This document shows, one piece after another, positions 28,375 to 52,486 of a stretch of DNA of 64,000 nucleotides. Made by a program: the position numbers and the translations under genes. This DNA is from Tetrahymena thermophila SB210 (Eukaryota > Ciliophora > Oligohymenophorea > Hymenostomatida > Tetrahymenidae). The DNA is taken from positions 534,625 to 598,624 of the forward strand of contig NW_002476420.1 of the NCBI RefSeq assembly GCF_000189635.1. Reading direction: 5' to 3'. Positions within the stretch are counted from its first letter, which is position 1, and every line of letters begins with the position of its first letter. The notes under the pieces are model-generated. The model searched no databases. It was not told where the DNA came from and saw nothing but the letters and a program-made list of their open reading frames with translations.

Positions 28375-29495
28375 ATGAGAATTATATGCTTAGCTTTAAT
28401 TGCTTTACTTGCAATATCTGTTGTCTATGCTGATGAAGATATTGATGCTATCAAGGAATGCGCTACTTCTACTGATGCCCAAATGAATTGTGGTGAAGAT
28501 GAAGATGAGGCCTGTGAAAAAGAAAAGGAAAGATTGGAATCATGCATAGATGCTTGTGACAACGGTTCCTTCGATTAAACTATGTATGAAATAGGGTTAT
28601 GCTTTTAAAAAAAGTGTACTACCAAAAACTCAAAGCTCAAAACTGCTTTATCAAATTACATTAAATGTTTCCTTAAATTCCCTCCCACTGAAGATAATAA
28701 AAATGAAGGCGACAATAAAGGTGAAGATGAAAATAAGGGTGAAGGAGAAAAGAAAGATGAAGGCGTAAATAAGGACGAAGATAACAAGAAAGATGAAGGA
28801 GAAAAGAAGGATGAAGGAGAAAATAAGGATGAAGGAAACAAGAAAGATGAAGGAGAAAAGAAGGATGAAGGAAACAAGAAAGACGAAGGAGAAAAGAAGG
28901 ATGAAGGAAACAAGAAAGACGAAGGAGAAAAGAAGGATGAAGGAAACAAAAAAGACGAAGGTGAAAAGAAAGATGAAGGAGAAAAGAAGGACGAAGGAAA
29001 CAAAAAAGACGAAGGAGAAAAAAAGGAGGAAGGAAACAAGAAAGATGAAGGTGAAAAGAAAGATGAAGATACTAAGAAAGATGAAGGTATCAAAAAAGAT
29101 GAGGAAAACAAAAAAGACAAGGTCGAAGAAGGTCAATAAGGCTAAAAGGGAGATAAAAACTCTAATGATCAAAAAGATTAAAAAGACCAAAATGGTAAAC
29201 CTACCAAAGCTGAATAAAGTGTTATTTCTGGTGGAAACTCTTTAGTTTTTGCAGTCACTTTAACTATTTTAGCTTTATTAAATTGAGAAATATTTTATCT
29301 GTATATTATTGTAAATTCAAAATGTAAACATACATAAGACTTGTTAGAATTTTAAGGTTTTTAAATAAATTAAAAAAAGTATTATTTTATTAAAGTTGAT
29401 AAATGGCTAGATTAATGTTTAAATATACCATAAAATTTATTAATTTATCTCTAGTAATAATAATTTAGTATTGCTATTCTCTGATAATTATGATT
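27686..29495 (+). repeat. Array unit, type 1 flank (SD2), copy a
   Basis: About 1.8-kb unit holding flank plus array gene 1. It is repeated head to tail at about 29496-31160, and again at about 32463-34250 and about 41105-42890. Flanks are nearly identical between the first two units, down to TAAAAATTAAATAACAAAC at the start. Confidence 0.75.
28375..29286 (+). CDS. GPI-type surface protein, eight-Cys domain and KKDEG repeats (family B, gene 1)
   Basis: Intronless, 303 residues, TGA stop; internal TAA codons read as Gln. Residues 1-19 (MRIICLALIALLAISVVYA) are a signal peptide. Residues 27-105 hold eight cysteines (KEC, MNC, EAC, ESC, DAC, GLC, KKC, IKC), ending at FLKFPPTEDN. Residues about 110-250 are an imperfect hexapeptide repeat KKDEG[E/N], a charged, probably disordered polyampholyte stalk. 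The tail GQ-rich linker is followed by SGGNSLVFAVTLTILALLN, a small-residue site plus hydrophobic end typical of GPI anchoring. An in-frame TTG nine bases upstream is not needed. Expected on the cell or ciliary surface; the role, possibly a surface coat or antigen, is inferred from layout only. Confidence 0.82.
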
Positions 29496-30138
29496 AATAA
29501 AAATTAAATAACAAACAAGCTAATAAATTTTTAATATTGAAGTATTTACAGTAATTCTGTAAATGCTAGCTAGAAAGATATTTCTAATAAAATCTAATAC
29601 CAAGTCTAGTTAGTATCAAATTTAAATTAACTTATAATTAATCTATGTTTTAGTTCTATTTGGATTTAATCAATTATAACTGCTTCAAAATTGCTTATTA
29701 ATTCTTTTATAAATTTTAAATATTTTTGATATTTTGCTTTCATATTTTTTATATTTTAAAATAATTCTTTTAATTGTTAAATAATTTGAAATAATCAATT
29801 TATACTTTTTCATTTTATTTTCGAATTATAATAACAAGTTACTTTTAACTAATTAAATTTACTTGATACATTAAAATAGATAAATTTAATTAACTATAAC
29901 TAAAAATTTCTCCCAACTTATTTATTGCTAATTAAGTTTATCTAATTTAATTTTACTTCAAGATATTACGTTATGGTTATAGTTAGTCAGTCAGTCATTA
30001 ATTGCTAAATTTTAAAATAACAGCATAAATAAATTATGATCACAAATATAGTTTCATTTTCATTAAACACTTTAAATTATCTTAAGTATTTACCAAATTT
30101 TGTATAATTAAATCAATTAAAATAAAAAGTTGAAAAAT
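29287..30138. other. Spacer between family B genes 1 and 2
   Basis: AT-rich; after about 29496 it repeats 27690-28370. Just before gene 2 it lacks about 26 bp of leader (ATATTAAAATCAAATCTAAA...) present before the other intact genes. Confidence 0.65.
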
Positions 30139-30957
30139 ATGAGAATTATAAGCTTAGCTTTAATTGCTTTACTTGCAATATCTGTTGTCTATGCTGATGA
30201 AGATATTGATGCTATCAACAAATGCTCTGCTTCTACTGATGCCCAAATGAATTGTGGTGAAGATGAAGATGAGGCCTGTGAAAAAGAAAAGGAAAGATTG
30301 GAATAATGCATAGATATTTGCGACGGTACTGGTAATTCAACTTTTTATGAATTAGGGTTATGCTGTTAAAAAATGTGTACTACCAAAAACTCAAAGCTCA
30401 AAACTGCTTTCTCAAATTACATTAAATGTTTCCTTAAATTCCCTCCCACTGAAGATAATAAAAATGAAGATGACAAGAAAGGTGAAGATGAAAATAAGGG
30501 TGAAGGAGAAAAAAAAGATGAAGGTGTAAATAAGGACGAAGAAAACAAGAAAGATGAAGGAGAAAAGAAGGATGAAGGAAACAAGAAAGACGAAGGAGAA
30601 AAGAAAGATGAAGGAAACAAAAAAGACGAAGGTGAAAAGAAAGATGAAGGAGAAAAGAAGGACGAAGGAAACAAAAAAGACGAAGGAGAAAAAAAGGAGG
30701 AAGGAAACAAGAAAGATGAAGGTGAAAAGAAAGATGAAGATACTAAGAAAGATGAAGGTATCAAAAAAGATGAGGAAAACAAAAAAGACAAGGTGGAAGA
30801 AGGTCAATAAGGCTAAAAGGGAGATAAAAACTCTAATGATCAAAAAGATTAAAAAGACCAAAATGGTAAACCTACCAAAGCTGAATAAAGTGTTATTTCT
30901 GGTGGAAACTCTTTAGTTTTTGCAGTCACTTTAACTATTTTAGCTTTAATAAATTGA
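30139..30957 (+). CDS. GPI-type surface protein, Cys domain and KKDEG repeats (family B, gene 2)
   Basis: Intronless, 272 residues, TGA stop. Signal peptide MRIISLALIALLAISVVYA. The Cys domain differs from gene 1: INKCSAST, EQCIDICDGTGNSTFYELGLCCQKMC, giving nine cysteines because GLC is followed by a second Cys, plus a new NST glycosylation motif. The KKDEG stalk is shorter than in gene 1 by about five hexapeptides. The GPI tail is SGGNSLVFAVTLTILALIN. The leader just upstream is shortened. It is the most diverged of the long intact members in the Cys domain while its flanks are almost identical to gene 1, so the domain may have been exchanged by gene conversion. Confidence 0.8.
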
Positions 30958-31161
30958 GAAATATTTTATCTGTATATTATTTTAAATTCAAAATGTATAC
31001 ATACATAAGACTTGTTAGAATTTTAAGGTTTTTAAATAAATTAAAAAAAGTATTATTTTATTATAGTTGATAAATGGCTAGATTAATGTTTAAATATACC
31101 ATAAAATTTATTAATTTATCTCTAGTAATAATAATTTAGTATTGCTATTCTCTGATAATTA

Positions 31162-32378
31162 AACAAGCATAAAATTTAGAAGAGGGGAGGGATAGACCTT
31201 AATTAATGAGGATTGACTGTATTTATTTATATCTTTTGTTTTTTTAGGATATATTTATTATTACTTGAAAATATTAGCAATGAATACATCTATCTTAAAC
31301 AAAAAAGATTTAAAAATATTTATTAATTCTTTTAGTTTAAAATTATTTTATTTTTTTCTATTTTCTTTGTTTGTTTATTTTTTATCAATCAAATGCACTT
31401 AAAAATAATAAATAATTTCTTAATCTAATTTAAATGAGCATTTTCTTGTAACTTTTTTTTTATAGCTAAATATCATACTGAATTCGTACAAATTAAATAA
31501 GCTTTAAAATTCTCAGTTTATCTTTAATACAATTACTAGTAATTTACTAACTTTCAAGCTCTCTAATTAAAAATAATTAATTGAAACTTCATATTTTGAA
31601 ATTATTATACTTTATATTTAAATAGTCTTTTATAATTTAAGTAAGAGTGAATAAAATATCTAAAAATATTTGTAGAACAATTAAAAATTGTAACAGATAA
31701 ATCCTCTTATATTAAAAATAATTAATGATAAATTTGGTTTTTTTGGTAAAATTGAAAATAAGTTAAGTTAAAATAGACTAAAATAAATAATTAATTTCCT
31801 AATAAAATATTGAAATTATAATGATTTTAATTCAATTTTATTTTATGAATTTCCTAGATATTTTCAATAAATTAAGAATATTTATTTATATAATTTACTA
31901 TTGATTGAATTTAATATTTCAAAAATTATCAAGTATTAATATTCAATTACTATTAACTTATTTACTTACTTTCTAACTAGTCTTAATTACTCAAAAATTA
32001 AATAACTTTTTTTAATTAAAATCCAATAAATTACGAAGGAAGATTAAAGTAAATTATTTGTATTAAAAGTTATCATTTAATGCATGCGAAATGAGTGAAT
32101 ATTTCCTGTAAATCAAAATAATATTACGAAATAAAGAAATAACTGATACAAATTTATTTTTTCATTATAGATCCAAAAATATTTGCCTCTTAAAAGAAAA
32201 AGATATAAAAATCTAGATTTATCTCAAGATAATTTATTATATCGCCCTCATTACTAAATAATATCAATAAAATATTTTTTAAAATTTTTATTAGATAGAT
32301 AGATAGATTGAAAAAATAACTAAACTTTCAAATTGTTTATAAAACAATATAAAAATAACTGTAAGCAAATATTGATTA
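31162..32378 (+). repeat. Segmental duplication SD1, copy b (partner 26097-27375)
   Basis: Aligns with 26097-27375. It carries a deletion near 32190, where part of the ATCAAACAAAAAG stretch is missing, and other small differences. It inserts between array genes 2 and 3. Confidence 0.75.
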
Positions 32379-32393
32379 TTTATATATATGTAT

Positions 32394-32423
32394 AGTACCC
32401 TAGGGTACTGCCTTTTTCAAGGC
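32394..32423. other. 16-bp perfect palindrome followed by a hairpin
   Basis: AGTACCCTAGGGTACT (32394-32409) is its own reverse complement. It is followed at once by GCCTT-TTTC-AAGGC (32410-32423), a 5-bp stem with a 4-base loop. It is unusually GC-rich for this window and absent from the paralogous locus at about 27375. Function unknown. Confidence 0.85.
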
Positions 32424-33137
32424 TACATACAAATAGAATACATATGCAGAGTATTTATCTTTTTTTAAAATATAAATTAAATAATAAACGAGCTAATAAA
32501 TTTTTAAGATTGAAGTATTTACAGTAGTTCTGTAAATGCTAGCTAGAAAGATATTTCTAATAAAATCTAATATCAAGTCTAGTTAGTATCAAATTTAAAT
32601 TAACTTATAATTAATCTATGTTTTAGTTCTATTTGGATTTAATCAATTATAATTGCTTCAAAATTGCTTATTAATTCTTTTATAAATTTTAAATATTTTT
32701 GATATTTTGTTTTAACATTTTTTATATTTTAAAATAATTCTTTTAATTGTTAAATAATTTGAAATAAACAATTTATACTTTTTCATTTTATTTTCGAATC
32801 ATATATAACAAGTTACTTTTAACTAATTAAATTTACTTGATACATTAAAATAGATAAATTTAATTAACTATAACTAAAAATTTCTCCCAACTTATTTATT
32901 GCTAATTTAGTTTATCTAATTTAATTTTCATTCAAGATATAAAGTTATAGTTATAGTGAGTCAGTCATACAGTAATTACTAAATTTTAAAATAACAGCAT
33001 AAATAAATTATGATCACAAATTAAGTTTCATTTTAATTAAACACTTTAAATTATCTTAAGTATTTACCAAATTTTGTATAATTAAATCAATTAAAATAAA
33101 AATATTAAAATCAAATCTAAAAAAACAGTTGAAAAAT

Positions 33138-34067
33138 ATGAGAATTATATGCTTAGCTTTAATTGCTTTACTTGCAATATCTGTTGTCTATGCTGATGAA
33201 GATATTGATGCTATCAAGGAATGCGCTACTTCTACTGATGCCCAAATGAATTGTGGTGAAGATGAAGATGAGGCCTGTGAAAAAGAAAAGGAAAGATTGG
33301 AATCATGCATAGATGCTTGTGACAACGGTTCCTTCGATTAAACTATGTATGAATAAGGGTTATGCTTTTAAAAAAAGTGTACTACCAAAAACTCAAAGCT
33401 CAAAACTGCTTTATCAAATTACATTAAATGTTTCCTTAAATTCCCTCCCACTGAAGATAATAAAAATGAAGGCGACAATAAAGGTGAAGATGAAAATAAG
33501 GGTGAAGGAGAAAAGAAAGATGAAGGCGTAAATAAGGACGAAGATAACAAGAAAGATGAAGGAGAAAAGAAGGATGAAGGAGAAAATAAGGATGAAGGAA
33601 ACAAGAAAGATGAAGGAGAAAAGAAGGATGAAGGAAACAAGAAAGACGAAGGGGAAAAGAAGGATGAAGGAAACAAGAAAGATGAAGGAGAAAAGAAGGA
33701 TGAAGGAAACAAATAAGACGAAGGTGAAAAGAAGGATGAAGGAAACAAAAAAGACGAAGGTGAAAAGAAAGATGAAGGAGAAAAGAAGGACGAAGGAAAT
33801 AAAAAAGATGAAGGAGAAAAAAACGAGGAAGGAAACAAGAAAGATGAAGGTGAAAAGAAAGATGAAGGTATCAAAAAAGATGAGGAAAATAAAAAAGACA
33901 AGGTCGAAGAAGGTCAATAAGGCTAAAAGGGAGATAAAAACTCTAATGATCAAAAAGATTAAAAAGACCAAAATGGTAAACCTACCAAAGCTGAATAAAG
34001 TGTTATTTCTGGTGGAAACTCTTTAGTTTTTGCAGTCACTTTAACTATTTTAGCTTTATTAAATTGA
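33138..34067 (+). CDS. GPI-type surface protein, eight-Cys domain and KKDEG repeats (family B, gene 3)
   Basis: Intronless, 309 residues, TGA stop; longest intact member. Signal peptide and first 70 residues are the same as gene 1. Downstream it reads TMYEQGLC where gene 1 has TMYEIGLC. One hexapeptide carries a TAA (NKQDEG), which is Gln under the ciliate code and would be a stop under the standard code. About 22 KKDEG-like units form the stalk. C-terminus SGGNSLVFAVTLTILALLN. Neighbours and flanks are type 1. Predicted GPI-anchored surface protein; role unknown. Confidence 0.82.
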
Positions 34068-34249
34068 GAAATATTTTATCTGTAAATTATTGTAAATACT
34101 ATATATATACATACATAAGACTTGTGAGAATTTTAAGGTTTTTAAATAAATTAAAAAAAGTATTATTTTGTTAAAGTTGATAAATGGCTAGATTGATGTT
34201 TAAATATACAATGATATTTATTAATTTATTGCTAGTAATAATAATTTAG

Positions 34250-36440: not shown

Positions 36441-36592
36441 CAGTAAAAAAAATTAAGATTTCTTAGCAAATTAACAAAAGTTTCATTTCCCTTAAATACT
36501 TTAAATTATCATTAGTAATTATCAAATATTTTATAATTAAATCAATCAAAATAAAATAATTAAAATTAAATCTAAAAAAACAGTTGAAAAAT

Positions 36593-37495
36593 ATGAGAAT
36601 TATATGCTTAGCTTTAATTGCTTTACTTGCAATATCTGTTGTCTATGCTGATGAAGATATTGATGCTATCAAGGAATGCGCTACTTCTACTGATGCCCAA
36701 ATGAATTGTGGTGAAGATGAAGATGAGGCCTGTGAAAAAGAAAAGGAAAGATTGGAATCATGCATAGATGGTTGCGACAACGGTTCCTTCGATTAAACTA
36801 TGTATGAATAAGGGTTATGCTTTTAAAAAAAGTGTACTACCAAAAACTCAAAGCTCAAAACTGCTTTATCAAATTACATTAAATGTTTCCTTAAATTCCC
36901 TCCCACTGAAGATAATAAAAATGAAGGCGACAATAAAGGTGAAGGTGAAAATAAGGATGAAGGAGAAAAGAAAGATGAAGGTGAAAATAAGGATGAAGGA
37001 GAAAAGAAAGATGAAGGTGTAAATAAGGACGAAGAAAACAAGAAAGATGAAGGAGAAAAGAAGGATGAAGGAAACAAGAAAGATGAAGGAGAAAAGAAAG
37101 ATGAAGAAAACAAGAAAGATGAGGGAGAAAAGAAAGACGAAGGAGAAAAGAAAGACGAAGGAGAAAAGAAAGAAGAAGGAAACAAGAAAGATGAAGGTGA
37201 AAAGAAGGATGAAGATAATAAGAATGGAGAAGGAGAAAAGAAAGACGAAGGAGAGAAGAAGGATGAAGGAAACAAGAATGAAGAAGAAACAAAGAAAGAT
37301 GAAGGTATCAAAAAAGATGAAGAAAACAAAAAAGACAATGTTGAATAAGGCCAAAAAGACCAAAAGGGAGATAATGGCTCAAAAGATCAAAAAGATCAAA
37401 ATGGCAAGACTGTTAAAGCTGAACAAAGTGTTATTTCTGGTGGAAACTCATTAGTTTTTGCACTCACCTTAACTATCTTAGCTCTATTAAATTGA
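36593..37495 (+). CDS. GPI-type surface protein, eight-Cys domain and KKDEG repeats (family B, gene 4)
   Basis: Intronless, 300 residues, TGA stop. Signal peptide and Cys domain match genes 1, 3 and 6 almost exactly (DEDIDAIKEC), except CIDGCD for CIDACD. The stalk and C-terminal linker are of a second type: EDNKNGEGEKKDEGEKK, ETKKDEGIKKDEENKKDNVE, then QGQKDQKGDNGSKDQKDQNG and SGGNSLVFALTLTILALLN. The protein thus joins a type 1 N-terminus to a type 2 C-terminus, as expected after gene conversion. Predicted GPI-anchored surface protein. Confidence 0.82.
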
Positions 37496-39187
37496 GAAAT
37501 ATTTTAATTTGTTAATAATTTAAATAAAATGTACTTGTAAACATACATACAATATGTGTGTGACTGATTATAATTATTTTGAATACTGATAAATTCTACA
37601 TTCAAAAATTTAATAGAGATAAAGTATTAATGAATCTTATATAAATAAATATTAAACTATTAAAATTAGTATTATTAAATTATGGTATTAATATTTTTAT
37701 CTTATTCATTTTTTTAAATTTACCAACTGTATATTAAATAATATGCTATTTAGCAAATAATTTTGTAATCTATTTTTAAATAATAGCAATGTTTGTTTTA
37801 AATGGTGTGTGTATCTTTTTAAATTTCTAACTCTTAAAATTTTCTGTCAATGTCATTAAATTAAATTTAGCTACCTCTATTTTTTGTACTTTGCTTTATT
37901 TTTATTAATATTATTAGTATTACTTTACTAAATAAATAAATAGCGCTTTTTATAAAATATATTAAATTGAAGGTTTATCAAGTTTATTTTTTTGTAATTA
38001 CTTTATTTTAGATAAGTTCTAAATTTCTAAAAAAATAAATACACCTTAATTATTTAGTAAATGTAATATATCTGATTAAATTTGGTCATTTATGAAGGAT
38101 GAATTATTAAATTTTGGAAAAAATTAATTTAAAACAGATAAAAATATGCTAGAATGTAGAACAGATAAATGTAATATTGAATATTGAAAACTTAACAAAC
38201 AAACAAATTTAATTAATTTAAATTAAAATAATTAAATGCATCAATTTAATTTTATTGCGATTCGTGAATAATTTAAATTATTTTCATATATTTGTTCTCA
38301 TTTATATTTAATTTTAAAAATGAATAAGTTGATTTAAATAAATTTACTAAGGACTAACAATTTAAAGTATTTTTTTCATAATTGGCTACTTGAAATTAAT
38401 TAAAAAATATAGAGCTTTTTTATTGATATTAAATATGATTAATTAATATGAGAAAACTAGTAATAGTACTTGTTAATAAAAAAGATTATAATCAATAATA
38501 ATATTTAATACTAATAATCAGCCGACTTAAACTAATTAACTAACTAACTAACTAACAGGCCATTTATTAAAATAAAAATTCTTGACTAAACTAAAAAAAA
38601 TAAATACACATCTTTAATGCTTATGTTTTTCTATTTTACATATTTTTGCATATTTTTCAAAATATGTAATTAAAAAAGCTTCTATTTTTTTCCTACCTTA
38701 TTAAAAACATTTTGAAAACTATAAAAAAAAAATATATTTACACAATATTTAATTTTTTATTATGAAATATTTACAGTAATTAAGTAAAGAATTAATATGT
38801 CTTATAATAAATAATATTAAGTCTAGTTTGTATTTAATTCAAAATAACTGAAATACATGCCTTTATTTTAGTTCTATTTAAATTAGAACAAATCATAAAT
38901 ATTGAAATTACTGCATTTAAATTATATTATTAGTTCTAATTTTATTTATATCTTAAGTTAATTTCGTCTATTTTTATTTATCTATCTTTCGAGATATTAT
39001 GTTATAGTCAGTGGATGCTTAAGGTTTATATAACAATATCAAAAATATTAGAATTTTTTAATTAATTAATTAAAGTTTCATTTCCCTTAAATACTTTAAA
39101 TTATCATTAGTAATTATCAAATATTTTATAATTAAATCAATCAAAATAAAATAATTAAAATTAAATCTAAAAAAACAGTTGAAAAAT
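37496..39187. other. Spacer after gene 4
   Basis: AT-rich, no gene seen. The first about 650 bp resemble the spacer after gene 5 (SD4). Contains (AACT)n at about 38536-38558. The last 110 bp are almost identical to those before gene 4, although the DNA further upstream is different. Confidence 0.55.
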
Positions 39188-40072
39188 ATGAGAATTATAT
39201 GCTTAGCTTTAATTGCTTTACTTGCAATATCTGTTGTCTATGCTGATGAAGAATCTGATGCAGTCAAGGAATGCGCTACTTCTACTGATGCCCAAATGAA
39301 TTGTGGTGAAGATGAAGATGAGGTCTGTGAAAAAGAAAAGGAAAGATTGGAATCATGCATAGATGGTTGCGACAACGGTTCCTTCGATTAAACTTTTTAT
39401 GAATAAGGGTTATGCTTTTAAAAAAAGTGTACTACCAAAAACTTAAAGCTCAAAACTGCTTTATCAAATTACATTAAATGTTTCCTTAAATTCCCTCCCA
39501 CTGAAGATAATAAAAATGAAGGCGACAATAAAGGTGAAGGTGAAAATAAGGATGAAGGAAACAAGAAAGATGAAGGTGAAAATAAGGATGAAGGAGAAAA
39601 GAAGGAAGAAGGAAACAAGAAAGATGAGGAAGAAAATAAAGATGAAGGAAACAAGAAAGATGAAGGTGAAAAGAAGGATGAAGGAAACAAGAAAGACGAA
39701 GGTGATGTGAAGGATGAAGGAAACAATAAAGAAGAAGGAGAAAAGAAAGACGAAGGAAACAAGAAAGATGAAGGTGAAAAGAAGGATGAAGAAAACAAGA
39801 ATGGAGAAGGAGAAAAGAAAGATGAAGGAGAGAAGAAGGATGAAGGAAACAAGAATGAAGAAGAAACAAAGAAAGATGAAGGTATCAAAAAAGATGAAGA
39901 AAACAAAAAAGACAATGTTGAATAAGGCCAAAAAGACCAAAAGGGAGATAATGGCTCAAAAGATCAAAAAGATCAAAATGGCAAGATTGTTAAAGCTGAA
40001 TAAAGTGTTATTTCTGGTGGAAATTCATTAGTTTTTGCACTCACATTAACTATCTTAGCTTTATTAAATTGA
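39188..40072 (+). CDS. GPI-type surface protein, eight-Cys domain and KKDEG repeats (family B, gene 5)
   Basis: Intronless, 294 residues, TGA stop. Signal peptide identical to gene 1; the mature start is DEESDAVKEC instead of DEDIDAIKEC, and EVC replaces EAC. All eight cysteines are present. The stalk is less regular (NKKDEEENKDEGN, DEGDVKDEGNNKEEGEKK). The type 2 linker and tail match gene 4 (KKDNVEQGQKDQKGDNGS, SGGNSLVFALTLTILALLN). Genes 4 and 5 form the type 2 subgroup. Predicted GPI-anchored surface protein. Confidence 0.82.
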
Positions 40073-41789
40073 GAAATATTTTAATTTATATATTTAAATA
40101 AAATTTACTTGTAAACATACATAAAATATGTGTGAATGACTATAATTATTTTTTATTTGAAAAAGGCTTTATTAAATAAATAAAAAAATTATTTTTGAAT
40201 ACTAATAAATTATAGAGAGAAAAAGTATTAATCATCTGAAATAAATAAATATTAAATAAACTCTATTAAAATCAGTATTATTAAATTAAGGTATTAATAA
40301 TTAAACATCCTATCCTGAATTTTATCATATTCCTTTTTTTTAATTTAGCCAACTGTATATTAAATAATATGCAATTAAATGAAGATATTTAGCAAATAAT
40401 TTTGTAATCTATTTTTAAATAATAGCAATCCTTGCTTTTAATGATGTGTGTATCTTTTTAAATTTTTAACCCTTAAAATGTCATTAAATTAAGTTAAGCT
40501 ATCTCTATTTTTTGTACTTTGCTTTATTTTATTAATATAATTATTAGTAATTTACTAAATAAATAGCGATTTTTATAAAATATATCAAATTGATGGTTTA
40601 TCTATCCAAGTTCTTATTTTTTGTAATTAGTTTATTTTAGATAATTTAGTTCTAAATTTCTAAGATAATATGCCTTGATTATTTAGTAAATGTAATAAAT
40701 AGCATCTGCTTAAATTTGGTCATTTATGGAGGATGAAGCATTAACTTCATGTTTAAAAGTAAAGTGGATCCGAGAATCTTGTATTAATTGTACAATTTTA
40801 TTTCAAAACAAAAATATTTTATGAAAAATATTCAAAATTATTTGCTGAATTCGATCAACTCTTGTTTCATATTTAATATAATAAGCTTTTAATTATATTA
40901 AGCTTAAGAGAGCTAAGGTATGCGAAATAATTAGAATACTTCCATTCATCATTCTTCTAGATTAAATGTATTTAATTTCGCGAATGAATACTAATTATTT
41001 ATCAATAATCAAAATTTTATAAATCTATAATAAATAAATATATATCTTAAAATATTAATTTTAAATTTTATGTGAAAATTATTCTTTTATTAGCAAAATA
41101 ATATTTTAATTAGTAAAAATTAAATAACAAACGAGCTAATTCATTTTTAATGTTGAAGTATTTACGGTAATTCTGTAAATGCTAGCTAGATAGATATTTC
41201 TAATAAAATCTAATACCAAGTCTAGTTAGTATCAAATTTAAATTAACTTATAATTAATCTATGTTTTAGTTCTATTTGGATTTAATCAATTATAATTGCT
41301 TATTAATTCATTTATAAATTTTTAATATTTTTGATATTTTGTTTTAATATTTTTTATATTTTAAAATAATTCTTTTAATTGTTAAATAATTTGAAATAAA
41401 CAATTTATACTTTTTCATTTTATTTTCTAACTATATATAACAAATTACTTTTAACTAATTAAATTTGCTTGATACATTAAAATAGATAAATTTAATTAAC
41501 TATAACTAAAAATTTCTCCCAACTTATTTATTTATTTATTTATTTATTGCTAATTAAGTTTATCTAATTTAATTTTACTTCAAGATATTACGTTATGGTT
41601 ATAGTGAGTCAGTCAGTCATTAATTGCTAAATTTTAAAATAACAGTATAAATAAATTATGATCACAAATATAGTTTCATTTTCATTAAACACTTTAAATA
41701 ATCTTAAGTATTTACCAAATTTTGTATAATTAATTAATTCAATTAAAATAAAAATATTAAAATCAAATCTAAAAAAATAGTTGAAAAAT
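40073..41789. other. Spacer after gene 5 (SD4 copy) and type 1 flank of gene 6
   Basis: No gene seen. About 40080-41040 is repeated after pseudogene 7 (about 45252-45720) and after pseudogene 9 (about 49060-49800). Shared markers are TTTGTACTTTGCT, GCTTAAGAGAGCTA and ATGCGAAATAATTAGAATACTTCC. From about 41105 it is the type 1 flank (SD2). Confidence 0.6.
40080..41040 (+). repeat. Segmental duplication SD4, copy a (partners about 45252-45720 and 49060-49800)
   Basis: Aligned by eye through AATAGCGATTTTTATAAAATATAT, ATATGCCTTGATTATTTAG and TTAAGAGAGCTA. Includes an imperfect inverted repeat near 40920-41000 (ATAATTAGAATAC against GAATACTAATTAT). Confidence 0.7.
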
Positions 41790-42701
41790 ATGAGAATTAT
41801 ATGCTTAGCTTTAATTGCTTTACTTGCAATATCTGTTGTCTATGCTGATGAAGATATTGATGCTATCAAGGAATGCGCTACTTCTACTGATGCCCAAATG
41901 AATTGTGGTGAAGATGAAGATGAGGCCTGTGAAAAAGAAAAGGAAAGATTGGAATCATGCATAGATGCTTGTGACAACGGTTCCTTCGATTAAACTATGT
42001 ATGAAATAGGGTTATGCTTTTAAAAAAAGTGTACTACCAAAAACTCAAAGCTCAAAACTGCTTTATCAAATTACATTAAATGTTTCCTTAAATTCCCTCC
42101 CACTGAAGATAATAAAAATGAAGGCGACAATAAAGGTGAAGGTGAAAATAAGGATGAAGGAGAAAAGAAAGATGAAGGTGTAAATAAGGACGAAGAAAAC
42201 AAGAAAGATGAAGGAGAAAAGAAGGATGAAGGAGAAAATAAGAATGAAGGAAACAAGAAAGATGAAGGAGAAAATAAGGATGAAGGAAATAAGAAAGACG
42301 AAGGAGAAAAGAAAGATGAGGGAGAAAAGAAAGACGAAGGAGAAAATAAAGATGAGGGAGAAAAGAAGGATGAAGGAAACAAAAAAGACGAAGGTGAAAA
42401 GAAAGATGAAGGAGAAAAGAAGGAAGAAGGAAACAAAAAAGATGAAGGAGAAAAAAAGGAGGAAGGAAACAAGAAAGATGAAGGCGAAAAGAAAGATGAA
42501 GGTATCAAAAAAGATGAGGAAAACAAAAAAGACAAGGTCGAAGAAGGTCAATAAGGCTAAAAGGGAGATAAAAACTCTAATGATCAAAAAGATTAAAAAG
42601 ACCAAAATGGTAAACCTACCAAAGCTGAATAAAGTGTTATTTCTGGTGGAAACTCTTTAGTTTTTGCAGTCACTTTAACTATTTTAGCTTTATTAAATTG
42701 A
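41790..42701 (+). CDS. GPI-type surface protein, eight-Cys domain and KKDEG repeats (family B, gene 6)
   Basis: Intronless, 303 residues, TGA stop. Signal peptide, Cys domain and TMYEIGLC match gene 1. The beginning of the stalk (EGDNKGEGENKDEGEKKDEG) matches type 2 genes 4 and 5, while the end (GIKKDEENKKDKVEEGQQG, SGGNSLVFAVTLTILALLN) is type 1. It is therefore a mosaic in the opposite sense to gene 4. Repeat units are interspersed with NKKDEG and KKEEG variants. Its upstream region is the type 1 flank and its downstream region is SD3. Predicted GPI-anchored surface protein. Confidence 0.82.
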
Positions 42702-44959
42702 GAAATATTTTATATGTATATTATTGTAAATTCAAAATGTATACATACATAAGACTTGTTAGAATTTTAAGGTTTTTAAATAAATAAAAAAAATAGCAGA
42801 ATTGTTTTATTAAAGTTGATAAATAGCTAGATTAATGTTTAAATATATCATAATATTTATTAATTCCTCACTAGTAATAATAATTTAGTATGCAAATGGA
42901 TATAGCTAACCTTGAAAATTTTTTTTCGTGAGTAGGTATGTGATTTTTAGTTTACATGTTTATTAAATATTATTTTTATAATCTCCTTTAATAATTTAAA
43001 TTTTAATATAATCCACATTTAAATCTTATGTATAAAATTTTATTTTATAAAAATTACCATATTCTCTATTGAACACTTACGTTTTCACAATATGGAAATT
43101 TCATAAAATCAAAGAGATATTATAATAGAGAGTATATAAATTAATTTATAAGTTGTTAATTGTTTTGCAATAAAAAGAGTTGTTTAATTAATTAAGTAAC
43201 ATATTTTAGCAGCAGCATTCTATATATTTGCGTAAAAAAAAAAACGACTGACTCTTTTATTTAAACTTATTTATATTAAATTTCAAAATATTTTATGTTT
43301 AATTTCTCTTCAGCAAGCATATTTAAAGCAAAAATCCTTTTAAAGCAATTGTTTTGATTAATAATTAAAAAAAATATAATTAAATTTTATTAGAGAATAC
43401 AGCAGCTGCAATTGATTACTTTTAAATTGTAAAAACTACTTAAATTTCATATAAAAAGAAAATTGTATAATATGTGAATCTTAATTTATCTTGATATTTT
43501 TACAAGTATTTTACTAACACTCAATCACTTTTATTAAATATAACTAATTGAAATTTTAATTTTTGAAACTAACTTGGAATAAATATTTATTAAAAAATAT
43601 GCATAGATTACTTAGCAATTGTAACAAAACAATATTTACTTCTGATAAAATTTGATAATAATTAATTAAGATGTTTCAGTAAAAAATAATCAAACAAAAA
43701 TAAAAAAAATTATTTTAGAATATTTAAATTTAAAAAAATATTTTATTAATTTTTTAAAAGAATTAAAAAGAATTTTATATTTTCCTTTATTTTTTATCAT
43801 TAAAATTTAATTTAATGATAGCTTAAATATATTATTAGGTAATAACTAATACTTGATAACTTGCTGATAATTAAATTATCTAAATTGTTCTAAAATTAAA
43901 TAACTTATTTTAATAATCATTCATTATACATAATAAATTACTAAAATTAAAATAAAAAAGTTTTGGTAATAGTAACTATTTTATATGAATTAAATTATAG
44001 ATATTTACTGTAAATCAATATATTTACACATAATTAACATTAAATGATACAAATTACAATTATCCAACCAAATAAATCCAAATATATTTATTTGTTTCTT
44101 AAACTAGAAATTTATTAACAAAGATAAAAGTATCTGGCTGGATTTATAGGAATAAAAGTTATTTGTATATTAATTGCTTGCTTATTATTTTTGATTTACA
44201 AAATTTTTTTGATTTAATATTATTAAGAAATTAATAATATTAAACAAATAACATATTAATTAATACTTTAATCAAATTTTTTATAAGAAGTAATTTATCA
44301 TGGATAGAGAATATATAATTGCACTGTCTTTTAAAAATACCAAGTTTTATTTTTAATTATTTCTTTAGGTATGAATACATATTCTATGGTACTATAAAGT
44401 AAATTTAAGCATTTTTAATTAATTTTATCCATTAAAAATGATAATTTATCTTCATCATAAAATAAAAAAACTTTTAAAAAAATAACCTTTTTCCAAAACA
44501 TAAGTTAAATAAAATTTAATATAGTATTATTTCATTGCATATGCATTATGAGTGTTAATAATTTATTCACAAAATAAATAAATTGAAATAAAAATTAATT
44601 TATTTTTTTAAATAAAACCTCAAAAAAATATGTGCTCTTAAAAATTTAATAGTATTTATATTTTTAGAGTAATTTAGAAATATTTCTAATCAAAATTTCA
44701 TCTTTTACAAACAAATTATGCGCTCACTTTTTATATTTTATATAAACTGTATCATTAGAGACTATGAATAAACAAGTAAATAAATAATATATTTAAATTA
44801 AATATTCATTAAAATAGATAGATATTTACTTAACTATAACTAAAATTTATCCCGTTTTATTTATTTTTAATTTTTTAATTCATCCAATTTTATTTTACTT
44901 ACAAAATGTTACGTAATAGTAAATTAGAGGTTGATAAATTATAAAATAACAGTAAAAAA
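42702..44959. other. Spacer SD3, copy b
   Basis: AT-rich, no gene seen; repeats 34068-36440 with substitutions and indels. Runs directly into truncated pseudogene 7. Confidence 0.6.
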
Positions 44960-45252
44960 ATGCTATCAAGAAACCAAAAACTAAAAGCTCAAAACTACTT
45001 TATCAAACTACATTAAATTTTTCTTAAAATTCCCTCCCACTGATCCACTGATGATAACAAAAATGAAGGCGACAATAAAGGTGAAGGTGAAAACAAGGAT
45101 TAAGGAGAAAAGAAAGATGAAAGTGTTAATAAGGACGACGAAAACAAGAAAGATGAAGGAGAAAAGAAGGATGAATGAAACAAGAAAGATGAGTGAGAAA
45201 CTAAAGATGAAGGAAACAAGACAGATGAAGGTGAAAAAAAGGGTGAAGGAAA
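44960..45252 (+). pseudogene. Truncated family B pseudogene (unit 7)
   Basis: Lacks the signal peptide and first seven cysteines. Upstream flank ATAACAGTAAAAAAATGCTATCAAG runs straight into the KNQKLKT, then LSNYIK, part. The conserved Cys of IKC is Phe. An extra GATCCACT appears after PPT and shifts the frame. Within the KKDEG stretch there are TGA stops (GATGAATGA, GATGAGTGA). The C-terminal GPI part is missing: the sequence jumps into the SD4 spacer at about 45252. Not expected to be functional. Confidence 0.85.
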
Positions 45253-46275
45253 GTCATTAAATAAGTTAAGCTTTTTCTATTTTTGTACTTTGCTATATTT
45301 TATTAATATAATTACTAGTACTTTACTAAATAAATAGCAGTTTTTATAAAATATATCAAATTGAAGGTTTATCAATTCAAGTTCTTTTTTTTTAATTAGT
45401 TTAATTTAGATACTAAATTTCAAAGATAATATGCCTTGATTATTAAGTAAATGTAATAAATAGCATTTTCTTAAATTTGGTCATTAATGAAGGATGGAGT
45501 ATATTAACTACATGTTTAAAAATAAAGTAGATGCGATCTTGTTTCATATATATTAAAATAAACTTTTAATTATATTAAGCTTAAGAGAGCTATAAATTTT
45601 TAAGGTATGCGAAATAATTAGAATACTTCCATTAATCATTCATCTAGATTAAATGTATTTAATTTCAGGAATAATAACTATTTCTTAATAATTAAAATTT
45701 TATAAATCTATAATATATATATATATATATATATATCCTTAAATATTAAGCAATGTCAACCCAAATTTCTTATTCAAGATTTATCATTTTCCATATTATT
45801 TAACTCTAATTATACAATAGAAAACATACTTAATTTTTTAAATATGGGGGTGTTTACAGTAATTAAGTTATGAATTAATATATCTGATAATAACTAATAT
45901 TAATTAAATATAGTTCGTATTAAATTCAAAATAACTGAAATATATATATATATATGCCTTTATTTTAGTTCTATCTAGATTTGATCAATTAATAAATTTT
46001 CTCAATATATTAGTTCTAATTTTATTATATCTTAAGTTAATTTTGTATATTTTTATTTATCTATATTTCGAGGTATTATGTTCTAGTCAGTCAGCGAATG
46101 CTAAAGTTTTATATAACAATACCAAAAATATTACTATTTTTCACTCAATTAATTAAATAAAGTTTCACTCTCCTTAAATACTTTAAATTATCGTTAGTAT
46201 TTACCAAATATTGTATAATTAAATCAATTAAAATAAAAATATTAAAATAAAAACTAAAAAAAACAGTTGAAAAAT
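45253..46275. other. Spacer between unit 7 and gene 8
   Basis: SD4-like DNA to about 45720, then an (AT)n run at 45712-45736, then a type 2 upstream flank (GTGTTTACAGTAATTAAGTTA, CCTTTATTTTAGTTCTATCT) shared with unit 10. Nothing coding seen. Confidence 0.55.
45712..45736. repeat. (AT)n microsatellite
   Basis: About twelve AT repeats, seen directly. Confidence 0.9.
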
Positions 46276-46758
46276 ATGAGAATTATTTGTGTTGCTTTAA
46301 TTGCTTTACTTGCAATATCTGCTGTCAATGCTTAAGATAATGAGTTTATTTAGTGTGTAGGGAAATCTATAGCTTAAATGAGGTGTACAGATAATTAAGA
46401 TACAGCCTGTAATAATAAATTTAATGAAATCTCAGAATGTTTTACTGGTTGCCATACTACTTTTCCTACTTAATATTTTGAATAAGGGCAATGCGTTAAT
46501 CAAAAATGTACTTCCGACAAATAAGAGTTCAAAACTGGTTTATCTGATTTAATTAAATGCTACTCTAAATTCTCTCCCACTGGAAATAAAGATGAAGGTG
46601 CAAATAAGGACGACCAAAAAGACTAAAAGGGAGATAATAGCTCTTAGGATCAAAAAGATCAAAATGGCAAAACAGCTAAAGCTGAACAAGGTGCTATTTC
46701 TGGCGGAAACTCATTAGTTTTTGCACTCACTTTAACTGTTTTTGCTTTATTAAATTGA
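46276..46758 (+). CDS. Short eight-Cys GPI-type protein without KKDEG stalk (family B, gene 8)
   Basis: Intronless, 160 residues, TGA stop. Signal peptide MRIICVALIALLAISAVNA. All eight cysteines are conserved in spacing (IQC, MRC, TAC, SEC, TGC, GQC, QKC, IKC), but the residues between them differ strongly from genes 1-6. After KFSPTGNKDEGANKDDQKDQ it passes directly to the linker and SGGNSLVFALTLTVFALLN, with only one KDEG-like unit. The intact frame, with many synonymous and non-synonymous changes, suggests a functional older lineage. It defines the minimal module: signal peptide, Cys domain, GPI signal. Nearest relative is the frameshifted unit 10. Confidence 0.82.
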
Positions 46759-48620
46759 AAAATATTTTTTTTTAGAGATTAATTTAAAAAAGTAAACTAT
46801 ACATTGAGTTTTTTTAAGTTTATGTGGTTTTTGTTAGTTAATTTTTTAGCCAATCAAATTAATAACTAATATTTATTTAAAATAATTTATTAAATATATC
46901 TTAAAGATATTATATAGGTTATAGTAAGACTTGTATGAATTATTATAACATGATTATATAATCATTGAATTAAACTCATTAAAAAATAATCATTATGATT
47001 ATAAATAAAATTATTGTTATTCTAAAAAATTTATTTATTAACTATTCTTAATTGATTATTTGTAAAAAGAATACGGCGATTATGATCTTTATTATTATTT
47101 TAGAAATTTATATTAGTTATAAGATTTTTTTGAAGAAAAAATTCATTTTAGAAAAACAAAATTAACATAAAAATAATTTATAAAATTAATTAAAAATGTA
47201 TTTACTGAAAGTTATAATTTAAAAGATTTTTTTAATGAAATGATAGTTTAGAATTTTTAAATTTAAAAAATATTTTATTGAATTTTTAAAAAAATTAAAA
47301 ATAAATATATATTTTCATTTATTTTTTTATCACTAAAATTGAGTTTAAAAATAGCTTAAATATATTATTAAGTACTAACTAATGCTTGCTAATTTGCTGA
47401 TAATTAAATTATCTAAAATGTTCTAAAATTAAATAACTTATTTTAATAATAATTATACATAATAAATTACAAAAATTAAAATAGAAAATTTTTGGTAATA
47501 GTAACTATTTTATATGAATTAAATTAAAGATATTTACTGTAAATCAATATATTTACAGATAATTAACATTAAATGATACAAATTAAAATTATTGGACCTA
47601 ATAGATCCAAATATATTTATTTGTTTCTTAAACTAGAAATTCATTAAAAAAGATAAAAGCATCTGGCTGGATTTATTGTAATAAAAGTTATTATATATTA
47701 ATAGCTTGCTTATAATTTTTGATTTCAAAATTTTTTTAATTATATATTATTAAGAAATTAATAAGATTAAAAAAATACCATATTAATTAATACTTTAATC
47801 AAATTTTTTTATAAGAAGTAATTTATTATGGATAGAGAATATATATATATATATATAATTGCACTGTCTTTTAAAAATAGCAAACTTTTCATTTATTTTA
47901 AATTATCAAAATAATTAAAAAAGTAATAATATTTTAAGCTTTGTATTCAAAATGATCAACTATTTTTAATTATTTTTTTTAGGTATGAATACATATTCTA
48001 TCGTACTATAAAGTAAATTAAGCATTTTTAATTAATTTTATCCATTAAAAATGATAATTTATCTTCATCATAAAATAAAAAAACTTTTAAAAAAATAACC
48101 TTTTTTCAAAACATAAGTTAAATAATATTTAATATAATATTATTTCATTGCATATGCATTATGAGTGTTAATAATTTAATCATAAAATAAATTGAAATAA
48201 AAAATAATTTAATTTTAAATAAAATTTCAACCAATAATATGTGCTCATATAAATTTAATAGTATTTATATTTTTAGAGTAATTTAGAAATATATCAAGTC
48301 AAAATTTCATCTTATACAAACAAATTATGCACTCGATTTTTATATTTTACATAAACTGTATCATTAGGAACATTAAATAAACAAGTAAATAAATAATATA
48401 TTATAATTAAATATTCTTGTAAAAACTTAAAAAAGTTTTTATTATTAATTTATAAACTTTGATATTATAATTAAAATAGGCAAATTTAATTAACTATAAC
48501 TAAAATTTATCCCGTTCTATTTATTTTCAATTAATTAATTTCATCGAATTTTATTTTACTTACAAGATATTACATAATAGTAAGTAAGAGATTGATAAAT
48601 TATAAAATAACAGTAAAAAA
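46759..48620. other. Spacer, partly SD3 copy c
   Basis: No gene seen. From about 47200 it resembles 35100-36440 and 43700-44945. Contains (AT)n at about 47840-47858. Ends in the same ATAACAGTAAAAAAATGCTAT junction as before unit 7. Confidence 0.55.
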
Positions 48621-49055
48621 ATGCTATAAAGAAAAGTATACTACCAAAAACTAAAAGATCAAAACTGCTTTATCAAACTACATTAAATGTTTCTTGAAAT
48701 TCCCTCCCACTGAAGATAATAAAAATGAAGGCGACAATAAAGGTGAAGGCGAAAATAAGGATGAAGGAGAAATGAAAGATGAAGGTTTAAATAAAAACGA
48801 AGAAAACAAGAAAATAAAGAAGAAAAGAAAATTGAAGGAAATAAGAATGAAGAAGAAACAAAGAAAGATGAAGGTATCAAAAGGAATGAAGAAAACAAAA
48901 AATGCAAGGTTGAAGAAGGCCAAAAAGACGAAAAGAGAGATAATTGCTCAAAATATCAAAATGGTAAGACTCTTAAATCTGAACAAAGTGTTATTTCTAG
49001 TGGAAACTCACTAGTTTTTGCTCTCACCTTATCTAATTTAGCTTTATTAAATTGA
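48621..49055 (+). pseudogene. 5'-truncated, frameshifted family B pseudogene (unit 9)
   Basis: Signal peptide and first six cysteines are missing. The KKC Cys is Tyr (TAT), while IKC is intact. The stalk is short, with a frame change near 48809 (AACAAGAAAATAAAG), after which the type 2 stalk end, linker and tail continue in the other frame to SSGNSLVFALTL and a TGA at 49053. The ATG at 48621 is not in the coding frame. The left junction is the same as in unit 7, so both come from one deleted ancestor. Confidence 0.85.
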
Positions 49056-50295
49056 GAAATATTTTAATTTATATATTTAAATAAAATTTACTTGTAAACA
49101 TACATACAATAGGTGTAAATGACTGTAATTATTTTTTATTTGAAAATGGCTTTATTAAATAAATAAAAAAATTATTTTGAATACTAATAATTATAGATGA
49201 GAAAAAGTATTAATCAATCTGAAATAAATAAATAAATATTAAATAAACTCTATTAAAATCAGTAATATTAAGTTTTAAATAGTGTGTGTATAGATTTTTA
49301 ACCCTTAAAATGCCATTAAATTAAGTTAAGCTATCTCTAATTTTTGTAATTTGCTTTATTTTATTAATATAATTACTAGTAATTTACTAAATAAATAGCG
49401 ATTTTTATAAAATATATAAAAATGAGGGTATATCAATTCAAGTTCTTTTTTTTTAATTAGTTTATTTTAGATAAGTAAGTTCTAAATTTCAAAATAATAT
49501 GCCTTGATTATTTAGTAAATGTAATAAATAAATAACATCTGCTTAAATTTGGTCGTTTATGAAGGATGAAGTATTAACTACATGTTTAAAAATAAAGTAG
49601 ATGCGATCTTGTTTCATATTTATTAAAATAAGCTTTTAATTATATTAAGCTTAAGAGAGCTATAAATTATTAAGGTATGCAAAATAATTAGAATACTTCC
49701 ATTCATCATTCATCTAGATTAAATGTATTTAGTTTCAGGAATAATAACTATTTCTTAATAATTAAAATTTTATAAATCTATAATAAATAAATATACTGTC
49801 GTTTCTCATTAATTAACACTAAAAAAAAAAACCTTTTTCCTCAATATTGGGTGTTAATTAATTAACTTTATTTATACAATAGAAAACATATTTAATTTTT
49901 AATTATGAGGTGTTTACAGTAATTAAATTATTAATTAATATATCTGATAATAACTAATATTAATTAAATCTAGTTGGTATTAAATTCAAAATAACTGAAA
50001 TATATATATGCCTTTATTTTAGTTCTATCTATAATTTATTCAATATATTAGTTCTAATTTTATTATATCTTAAGTTAATTTTGTATATTTTAATTTATCT
50101 ATCTTTCGAGTTATTATGTTCTAGCTAAAGTTTTATATAACAATACCAAAAATATTACTATTTTTCACTCAATTAATTAAAGTTTCATATTCCTTAAATA
50201 CTTTAAATCACCATTAGTATTTACCGAATATTATATGTTAAATCAATTAAAATAAAAAAATAAAATTAAAATCTAAAAAAAAACAGTTGAAAAAT
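49056..50295. other. Spacer: SD4 copy, 12-bp inverted repeat, type 2 flank
   Basis: About 49060-49800 is SD4-like. 49808-49862 is bounded by 12-bp inverted repeats. From about 49895 it is the flank shared with gene 8. No gene seen. Confidence 0.55.
49808..49862. repeat. 55-bp segment bounded by a perfect 12-bp inverted repeat
   Basis: ATTAATTAACAC at 49808-49819 and GTGTTAATTAAT at 49851-49862 are exact reverse complements around a 31-bp core with a poly-A run. The related flank near 45730 does not show it. Confidence 0.8.
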
Positions 50296-50742
50296 ATGAG
50301 AATAATTTGCGTTGCTTTAATTGCTTTACTTGGAATGTCTGTTGTCTATGCTGATTAATAAAAAGAGCTTATGAAATGTGTATCGCACGCAACCTAATGC
50401 TATAATAGTTTGTAGAAATGAGGAAGATAAAGCCTGTTAAAAAGAAATTTCTCCAGTATCTCAATGTATTTTTGGTTGTAATAAAACTAATTCTACTTAT
50501 GAAAAAGGGCAATGCATTAAAAATTAATGTACTACCGAAAACTCAGAGCTCAAAACGGCTTTATCTAATATTGTTAAATGCTTTGATAAATTCGCTCCAT
50601 CTGAAAATAAAGGTGACAATAAAGATGAAAGTGTAACTAAGATCAAAATGGCAAAACTACTAAAGCTGAACAAGGTGTTATTTCTGGCGGAAAATCATTA
50701 GTTTTTGCATTTACTTTTGCTGTTTTTGCTTTATTATATTGA
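50296..50742 (+). pseudogene. Frameshifted short family B member (unit 10)
   Basis: Starts with a good signal peptide, MRIICVALIALLGMSVVYA, and CVSHAT, then needs a frame change near 50400 to continue as IIVCRNEEDKACQKEI, SQCIFGCNKT, GQCIKNQC and IVKCFDKF. A second change near 50638 is needed to reach the linker and the hydrophobic tail (SLVFAFTFAVFALLY) ending at TGA 50740-50742. All eight cysteines survive across the frames, so inactivation is recent, or the shifts are sequencing errors. No KKDEG stalk; sister of gene 8. Confidence 0.75.
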
Positions 50743-51325
50743 AAAATATTTTTTTTTTAAGAGATTAATGTAAAAAAACAATAAAATAAGTTTATTTTAA
50801 GTTTATGTGGTTCTTGTTTATTTTTTAGCCAATCAAATTAATAACTTTTAAAAATAAACAAATATCATCTCTAAATAAATTTGATAGTTTTAATTATTAA
50901 AAATAAATATATTATTTAATATGTATGTCTAAAATTTTTAACTTTTTAAAAAACATTTTGGGTTTTAATTATTTTTATTATTATTAAATTACTAAAAAAT
51001 ATAAATGATTTCATGTCTTTAAAAATAAATTTATAGTAAAAATTAAACTTTTAGAATTTCAGTAAAAAACAAACCATTTAAATACAATATTGGTTGATAT
51101 AAAAAATAGAAAAGTATGAAATATTTTTATTTTTTTTACTAAATATTTATTATATTTTATGGAGTGATTAGTAAAAATTTAAAATAACAGTAAAAAAAAT
51201 ACTTATCAATCAATTAATTAAAGTTTCATTTTATTTATTTATTTTTCGTATTTTTAAATTGTTTCATGGTTTAATCAATTAAAAAAAAAAAATTATAAAT
51301 AAATCTAAAAAAATAGTTGAAAAAT
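50743..51325. other. Spacer between units 10 and 11
   Basis: AT-rich with no gene seen. A shortened family B leader (CTAAAAAAATAGTTGAAAA) precedes unit 11. Confidence 0.5.
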
Positions 51326-51910
51326 ATGAAAATTACTTGCTTAGCTTTGATTACTTTATTTACAATATCTTTTGTCTATGTTGATGAACAGTCTAACCCT
51401 GTCAAAGAATGTTCTCAATAAACTGAAGCTGAAATTAATTTTGTTGAAATAGAATTGTAAAGATTGGAAAAACACACTGGTGATATACAATAGTTTTAAT
51501 CTTATTTTGTATGAATAAGGACTATTCTTTAAAAAAAAATACTACCAGAAACTTAAAGCTAAAAGCTGTTTTATCAAATAAGTTACACTAAATGTTTTTT
51601 TTAATCCTAAATGAAGATAATAACAAAAAAGGTAACAAGAAAAATGAAGGTGAAAATTAGGATAAGGAAAAAAGAAAGATTAAGGAGAAAATAAGGACAA
51701 GGGAAACAAAAAAGATGAAGGAGAAAAGCAGATCTTAGGAAACAATATAAATGAAGAAAATAAAAGATGAAAGAAATAAGAAAGAAGAAGAGAACAAGAA
51801 AGATGTAGGGTATTTAAAATAAGTTGAAAATAAATAAGACAAGGTAGAGAAAAGTTAAAAGATTAAAATGGTGAGAAGAACCCTTAAGACAAAAATATTA
51901 AAAAGATAAA
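51326..51910 (+). pseudogene. Strongly degraded family B pseudogene (unit 11)
   Basis: A signal peptide-like start, MKITCLALITLFTISFVYV, and DEQSNPVKEC are recognisable, but most cysteines are lost (MNC to INF; EAC absent; ESC to KHT). The frame meets TGA in the region equivalent to YEQGLC. The following KKDEG-like purine stretch (about 51600-51870) is out of frame and broken, and no GPI tail is seen. Oldest decay in the array, at its right end. Confidence 0.8.
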
Positions 51911-52486
51911 AATAAAAAAGTTAAATAGAATATTTTAATGAAATGATAAGTTTAAATCTATAGTCTATGAAAAATTTTGGAAAATAATTTTATGTTTTAA
52001 ATTTTTTAGAAATCCATTCGTTTGTTTGTTTGTTTGATTAAAATTACTTATAATTTTTGACTTTATGGTATAAAAAAATTAAATAGAATATTTTTTGTGA
52101 TCAGCAAGATGCACTAAAAATATCTATTTATTTATTTGAAGTATAAGCTAAGATTATATGTTTCTAAGTGCTAGATTAAATTCATATGTAGTTTATATTT
52201 TTAAAAATACAGGATTTAAAATGGATTGAAAAGTACTGTTTTAATGAACTATTAAAAATAAGAAGACCTTATTTGCTATGCTTGAAATATGTAAAACTGT
52301 AGGAGTTATAAAGCAAGTTCATTATAAGAAAAATAATAAAAATATTGATTTGATCAAATTTGCAAATTTTATTAATTAATAGTGGAAACAAAGCATTAAT
52401 TAAAAAATATCAGCACCTAATATAATATACAAACAATAACAACTTAAACATAAAAGATACAAAAATTTTAAAATTAATTTACAGAA
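51911..52486. other. Intergenic, right edge of the array
   Basis: AT-rich, with (TTTG)n near 52018-52036. No gene seen; no similarity to array spacers noticed, so the array ends here. Confidence 0.5.

Follow-up and report, generated by a model that had tools for sequence, protein, structure and literature searches.

Translation of a 64,000-nucleotide stretch of the Tetrahymena thermophila SB210 genome (contig NW_002476420.1, positions 534,625 to 598,624 of the forward strand; hereafter the window) with the ciliate code (table 6, in which TAA and TAG are read as glutamine) revealed eleven mutually related units at positions 28375-51913, all on the + strand. Six of them are intact and carry a full plan of signal-like segment, cysteine-rich head, charged stalk and hydrophobic C-terminus, one is intact and nearly stalkless, and four are broken. 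A first-pass annotation had proposed an eleven-unit tandem array on this strand and a re-prediction with the ciliate code; all eleven places proved to be related by sequence and the re-translation gave seven intact frames. On balance, the features described below point to an array of immobilization-antigen-like surface coat proteins. The units, together with the flank of the first of them, are as follows.

28258..28374, + strand: 5′ flank of unit A1, 117 bases (BLAST, pairwise identities, start context)
28375..29286, + strand: unit A1, intact, 303 amino acids (aa) in the table 6 translation, with a signal-like segment at residues 1-19, an eight-cysteine head, a charged stalk and a hydrophobic C-terminus
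30139..30957, + strand: unit B, intact, 272 aa, nine cysteines after residue 19, the shortest stalk of the six
33138..34067, + strand: unit A2, intact, 309 aa, the longest stalk
36593..37495, + strand: unit C, intact, 300 aa, mosaic, with an A-type head and a tail and 3′ flank of mixed A and F types
39188..40072, + strand: unit D, intact, 294 aa, mosaic, with F-type upstream DNA, an A-type head and a mixed tail; earlier in-frame ATG at 38999
41790..42701, + strand: unit A3, intact, 303 aa, sharing identical head DNA with A1; earlier in-frame ATG at 41595
44973..45252, + strand: broken unit (first annotated at 44960), final 71 head bases and part of a stalk whose frame is interrupted by stops, tail absent
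46276..46758, + strand: unit F, intact, 160 aa, almost stalkless; earlier in-frame ATG at 46078
48621..49055, + strand: broken unit, final 94 head bases and part of the stalk, tail in a different frame
50296..50742, + strand: broken stalkless unit, signal, first cysteine and C-terminus in frame one, remaining head in a second frame
51326..51913, + strand: broken unit, head and stalk spread over several frames, tail reduced to a fragment

The 5′ flank of A1 has counterparts upstream of 30139, 33138, 36593, 39188, 41790, 46276, 50296 and 51326, and the start context GTTGAAAAAT-ATG is identical at all nine existing starts. Because units D, A3 and F have earlier in-frame ATGs, the starts chosen for them rest on this conserved context. 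The four units that had been called pseudogenes (44960, 48621, 50296 and 51326) were all found broken. Those at 44960 and 48621 have lost their start and signal together with the greater part of the head, so the starts first assigned to these two are ATGs of another frame. In the 50296 remnant, most of a good head is still open in the second frame; its break may reflect recent decay or a sequence error, which are indistinguishable from the window sequence. A 448-aa open frame (44541-45887, + strand) takes in a spacer together with some of a broken unit; Pfam gave nothing for it at E up to 0.01.

The six stalked units encode proteins of 272-309 aa in which a signal-like segment of 19 residues, ending in VYA, is followed by a head with eight cysteines (nine in unit B), the charged stalk, a tail rich in glutamine, lysine and aspartate, and the hydrophobic C-terminus. 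The plan had been attributed to every unit; it stands in six of the eleven and fails in unit F and in the four broken ones. The eight cysteines stand generally, with the exception of unit B, the sole intact unit with an odd mature cysteine count, where the ninth suggests perhaps a free cysteine or a dimer. As to the proposed signal peptide and glycosylphosphatidylinositol (GPI) signal, what survives are signal-like and GPI-like segments, called by hydropathy in the array and in the wider family alike. The eight-cysteine spacing occurs in 7 of the 173 ATG-initiated open reading frames (ORFs) of at least 100 aa in the window, and all seven are the intact array units; its presence in the array is not due to chance. 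An N-glycosylation sequon lies in the loop between the fifth and sixth cysteines (C5-C6) of all six stalked copies and is missing from unit F, whose head is 31-36% identical to the other array heads.

The stalk consists of charged hexapeptides, with 7-14 strict KKDEG[E/N] hexads per stalked unit and none in unit F. From the head end to the tail, the stalks of the six copies measure 117, 141, 147, 147, 147 and 153 residues. The differences between them are whole hexads only (multiples of six residues), as would be expected if the reading frame was kept while repeats were gained and lost. The region between the head and the KAEQ motif has a net charge of -15 to -23 and holds 3-5 hydrophobic residues in 142-178. 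When the genome was searched with the stalk protein, the 11 matches at E up to 1e-5 fell within this array without exception, and on this result the idea that other genes carry the stalk as a domain was rejected. At the DNA level, unit A1 also matches contigs C219, C81 and C126, for the most part across the repeats.

The hydrophobic C-terminus, placed after a stretch of small residues, is kept in all seven intact units. This bears on a different reading, namely that the proteins are secreted or reside in internal compartments such as mucocysts or vacuoles and that the C-terminus does not function in GPI attachment. No fixed sequence defines a GPI signal, the array tail ends in asparagine, and a crude hydropathy test of the signal-like and C-terminal segments was passed on both counts by four of the seven intact units (the other three were tested from the earlier ATG), all of which would leave room for such proteins. 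The conservation of the C-terminus in every intact unit argues the other way, as does its presence in other family ORFs, although their listing selected for it; the internal or secreted location is thus considered decidedly improbable.

The head had been regarded as specific to the array, and this view had to be given up. Searches of the 101-megabase genome (445 contigs, the window lying on the one referred to here as C127) with single proteins located related heads or their remnants at no fewer than 88 places, spread over 22 contigs. This count merges rows with E up to 1e-3 within 600 base pairs, weaker rows being dropped, and it derives from a transitive similarity chain built on lower-bound searches in which most queries included signal peptides. 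A signal-free test relied on a hidden Markov model (HMM) of 19 heads from outside the window, taken from an alignment in which three heads of the window had also been included. Run against 1010 window frames, this model recovered all seven intact units (9.9e-11 to 7.4e-9), in line with the earlier proposal of a profile search in Tetrahymena, and it also matched the remnants at 50296 (3.1e-8) and 48621 (7.6e-4). Three mature heads each outscored 1000 of 1000 shuffles with fixed cysteines and 1000 of 1000 full shuffles. By sequence similarity, then, the eight-cysteine head of the array is one subtype of a genome-wide family.

For the family, 45 ORFs were listed that had been selected for a signal-like start, at least six cysteines and a hydrophobic end. 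The eight-cysteine pattern fits 39 of the 45, which yielded 36 distinct domains; the six that do not fit, including unit B with its ninth cysteine, were left out of the spacing set. The spacing is rigid: all 36 domains have C3-x9-C4 and C6-x3/4-C7, 35 have C7-x16-C8 and 31 have C4-x3-C5 (range x3-6). The C5-C6 loop contains a sequon in 22 of the 36, compared with a shuffle mean of 6.4; the domains are related, and the 22 sequons do not amount to 22 independent events.

The same head comes in several settings: on a charged stalk in this array, on a proline-rich stalk in four genes of contig C206, without a stalk on C195, C173, C168 and others, and in three blocks on C205. In a tree of 42 rows, in which deep branches were weak and unit F formed a long branch, a supported branch set the C127 group apart (99/100) and another the C206 group (100/100), and the two groups were not joined. 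This separation suggests that the charged and the proline-rich stalks were probably gained independently. The four C206 genes (302525-308548) are near-identical and alternate in orientation, and the window array is same-strand throughout.

The array head received no Pfam assignment above cut-off and no PDB assignment in profile searches, and Rfam gave no name either. For a head family without a Pfam match above cut-off, routine annotation is likely to miss the family. Among the papers listed by searches of a library of open-licence PMC articles, none was recognisable as dealing with this array, and KKDEGE occurs in none of the library's papers. The named domain matched by the largest number of heads was CFEM (PF05730), with weak matches in 4 of 22 family heads (E 0.0077, 0.041, 1.7 and 3.3) and in 0 of 22 shuffles with fixed cysteines. 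CFEM proteins are often GPI-anchored (PMC9684206). The likeness to fungal CFEM extends to the number of cysteines, eight, and to the last three cysteine spacings, which agree in 40 of the 44 family ORFs that remained once an unrelated one had been removed from the 45. These observations would favour the capture of a ligand (haem, iron or another small molecule) by a CFEM-like helical eight-cysteine head. Other results speak against it. The best of the four matches scores 16.7 bits, so that all of them fall below the 22-bit cut-off, and they lie in differing registers. The CxC and the N-terminal cysteine pattern of CFEM are missing in 44 of 44 family ORFs, and the pattern PxC[A/G]x2Cx8-12Cx1-3[x/T]Dx2-5CxCx9-14Cx3-4Cx15-16 (PMC9684206; final cysteine added in this analysis) fits none of the 44, in strict or cysteine-only form. 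A search of the genome with PF05730 gave nothing at E up to 10, with one candidate scored, and no structure of a CFEM protein came up in the PDB profile search within the same E limit. CFEM membership was rejected on the CxC test, the score cut-off, the differing registers and the genome search, and ligand capture is judged highly improbable. CHCH (twin CX9C) proteins share CX9C with all 36 family domains. Matches to them were weak (PDB chains at E 0.05 and up; Pfam in 1 of 22 heads, E 0.094), and the twin CX9C test failed, there being a single CX9C (C3-x9-C4), with x3-6 between C4 and C5 and x3-4 between C6 and C7. CHCH proteins belong to a mitochondrial setting, whereas the proteins studied here bear secretory-type signals by hydropathy. 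A CHCH origin was rejected for the weakness of the matches and the single CX9C.

The DNA between and around the genes indicates how the array may have been formed. Spacers within it recur as several types. Units A1, A2 and A3 have heads 99.4-100% identical and tails 100% identical, the following 180 bases are 89-94% identical, and the upstream DNA is 92-98% identical outside gaps. Upstream of unit D the sequence is F-type (53 F, 12 A and 6 other of 71 informative sites), its head is A-type (101 A, 4 F and 3 other of 108), and the tail with 150 further bases is mixed (34/34/13 of 81). In unit C the upstream DNA is of mixed type, with 42 A, 23 F and 10 other sites among 75; the head is A-type at 106 of 108 sites, and the mixture returns beyond the stalk, in the tail and 150 bases (30 A, 36 F and 11 other of 77). 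Unit B is A-like all along (upstream 64 of 74, head 94 of 107, tail and 150 bases 74 of 84). Judged from these sites, array copies are mosaics, the pattern left by segmental gene conversion or unequal exchange. The birth and death of copies suggested at first pass is supported. The three near-identical heads also represent little variety for a recognition system, which bears on the suggestion that these are surface proteins for cell-cell contact (conjugation, co-stimulation or self/non-self recognition), the head providing specificity and the stalk reach. That suggestion is compatible with an identical plan of signal, head, stalk and anchor and with the finding that SerH3 and mating-type proteins share shed ciliary vesicles (PMC12029339). 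It is regarded as unlikely.

The ratio of nonsynonymous to synonymous change (dN/dS) of mature heads in the window ranges from 0.24 to 2.25 where defined, and positive selection there was rejected, no pair among 21 being significant. Outside the window it goes from 0.07-0.19 (C173) to 2.33-4.11 (C205). Uncorrected p values fell below 0.05 with dN below dS in three of three pairs on C173 and 4 of 21 on C195, and one of three C205 pairs reached p 0.048 with dN above dS; the difference was not significant on C206 (6 pairs) or C22 (1 pair). An array that now lacks a function and decays under relaxed selection could account for the four broken units out of eleven and for the dN/dS of 1.03-1.22 over 102-107 changes between unit F and the other heads. 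Unit F nevertheless retains its eight cysteines and an open frame despite divergence, the six stalks vary by whole hexads only, and the 5′ flanks and start context are conserved, so that decay appears quite improbable.

Surface coat proteins resembling immobilization antigens are preferred over these alternatives, with moderate confidence. The frames, the head family, the cysteine spacing, the sequon, the hexad-wise length changes, the mosaics and the remnants are properties of the sequence itself. Each intact gene would encode a secreted precursor, and the predicted mature protein would be a small disulfide-bonded head, glycosylated in the six stalked copies at the one sequon in the C5-C6 loop, on a hydrophilic mixed-charge stalk of 117-153 residues ending in a GPI signal for putative anchoring and surface display. 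The stalk would hold the head off the membrane within a glycoprotein coat. The array would evolve by segmental duplication and by loss, with stalks gaining or losing whole hexads; gene conversion or unequal exchange would shift segments between copies, giving variant and mosaic coat proteins. Several points weigh against a coat role. Diversifying selection finds no support in the window, where 0 of 21 pairs depart from neutrality (lowest p 0.35), and the near-identity of the A1, A2 and A3 heads speaks against strong diversification among these three. In comparison with the described SerH, SerL and SerJ, each intact window protein has one cysteine block and not several; the long charged repeat stalk is unlike known immobilization antigens; and the signal and GPI calls are made by hydropathy.

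A broader proposal, tentative and rather doubtful, is that of a modular coat system not yet recognised as a unit. One eight-cysteine head family, at 88 or more places and often with a sequon in one loop, would occur stalkless, on separately acquired charged or proline-rich stalks, or in blocks, reshuffled by gene conversion with switch points close to the start and within or beyond the stalk. Why free-living ciliates vary surface coats without a host immunity to evade is an open question (PMC4136848, PMC9788069). A small single-head protein with a countable stalk, in stalked and stalkless natural versions and in a tractable species, would make head, stalk and copy number separable.

The array is preceded by a 260-aa ORF (24890-25672, + strand) with a signal-like start, 14 cysteines and a hydrophobic C-terminus, which has no Pfam match and no other genome match at E up to 1. 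Other neighbours are ATG2-like pieces (17450-24562, + strand), a kelch-repeat protein (14070-15659, + strand) and a citrate synthase in two pieces (55045-56916, - strand). In the genome as a whole, the TERT exon translations agree with PDB 6d6v, the T. thermophila enzyme, with no mismatch except at exon edges, and a ciliate telomerase RNA occurs once, in keeping with the species assignment. The last 200 bases of contig C127 contain no telomere repeat, and a subtelomeric location is therefore not claimed.

The closest known systems are the immobilization antigens. T. thermophila has tandem same-type arrays of GPI-linked cysteine-rich antigens, and SerH has eight cysteines per block (PMC4136848). 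Compared by description, the array resembles SerH, SerL and SerJ in the cysteine criterion, the GPI-like C-terminus, the tandem same-type arrangement and the eight cysteines per block, and the family relatives on C205 have three blocks. The published criterion for Ser candidates, CX(>=6)CX(>=1)CX(>=1)CX(>=1)CX(>=1)C within 120 residues, is combined with a GPI signal rated "highly probable" by FragAnchor, and it gave 216 motif-based candidates in T. thermophila, 55% of them left unclassified (PMC4136848). The cysteine part of this criterion fits 43 of 44 family ORFs. The first-pass statement that the family has no described name thus stands for Pfam and PDB and has to be modified elsewhere, a loose published umbrella being available, by cysteine criterion, for the head family. 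Under the tentative proposal of a modular coat system, some family arrays may hold serotype genes such as SerT, SerS, SerM and SerI, which are genetically known in T. thermophila and described as unidentified in PMC4136848. The charged stalk had been set apart from the cysteine-block repeats described for immobilization antigens, and this distinction is upheld. Because of the one block and the long stalk, the array proteins are not filed as Ser proteins, which they look like and appear to evolve like. Immobilization antigens of Ichthyophthirius have a signal, a cysteine-rich region and a GPI-type C-terminus and are encoded in tandem arrays with pseudogenes (PMC3341644). All of these features recur in the array; the Ichthyophthirius proteins contain tandem repeats, five to six in number and 60-100 aa long, in which cysteines recur periodically, whereas the array proteins carry a single head on a charged stalk.

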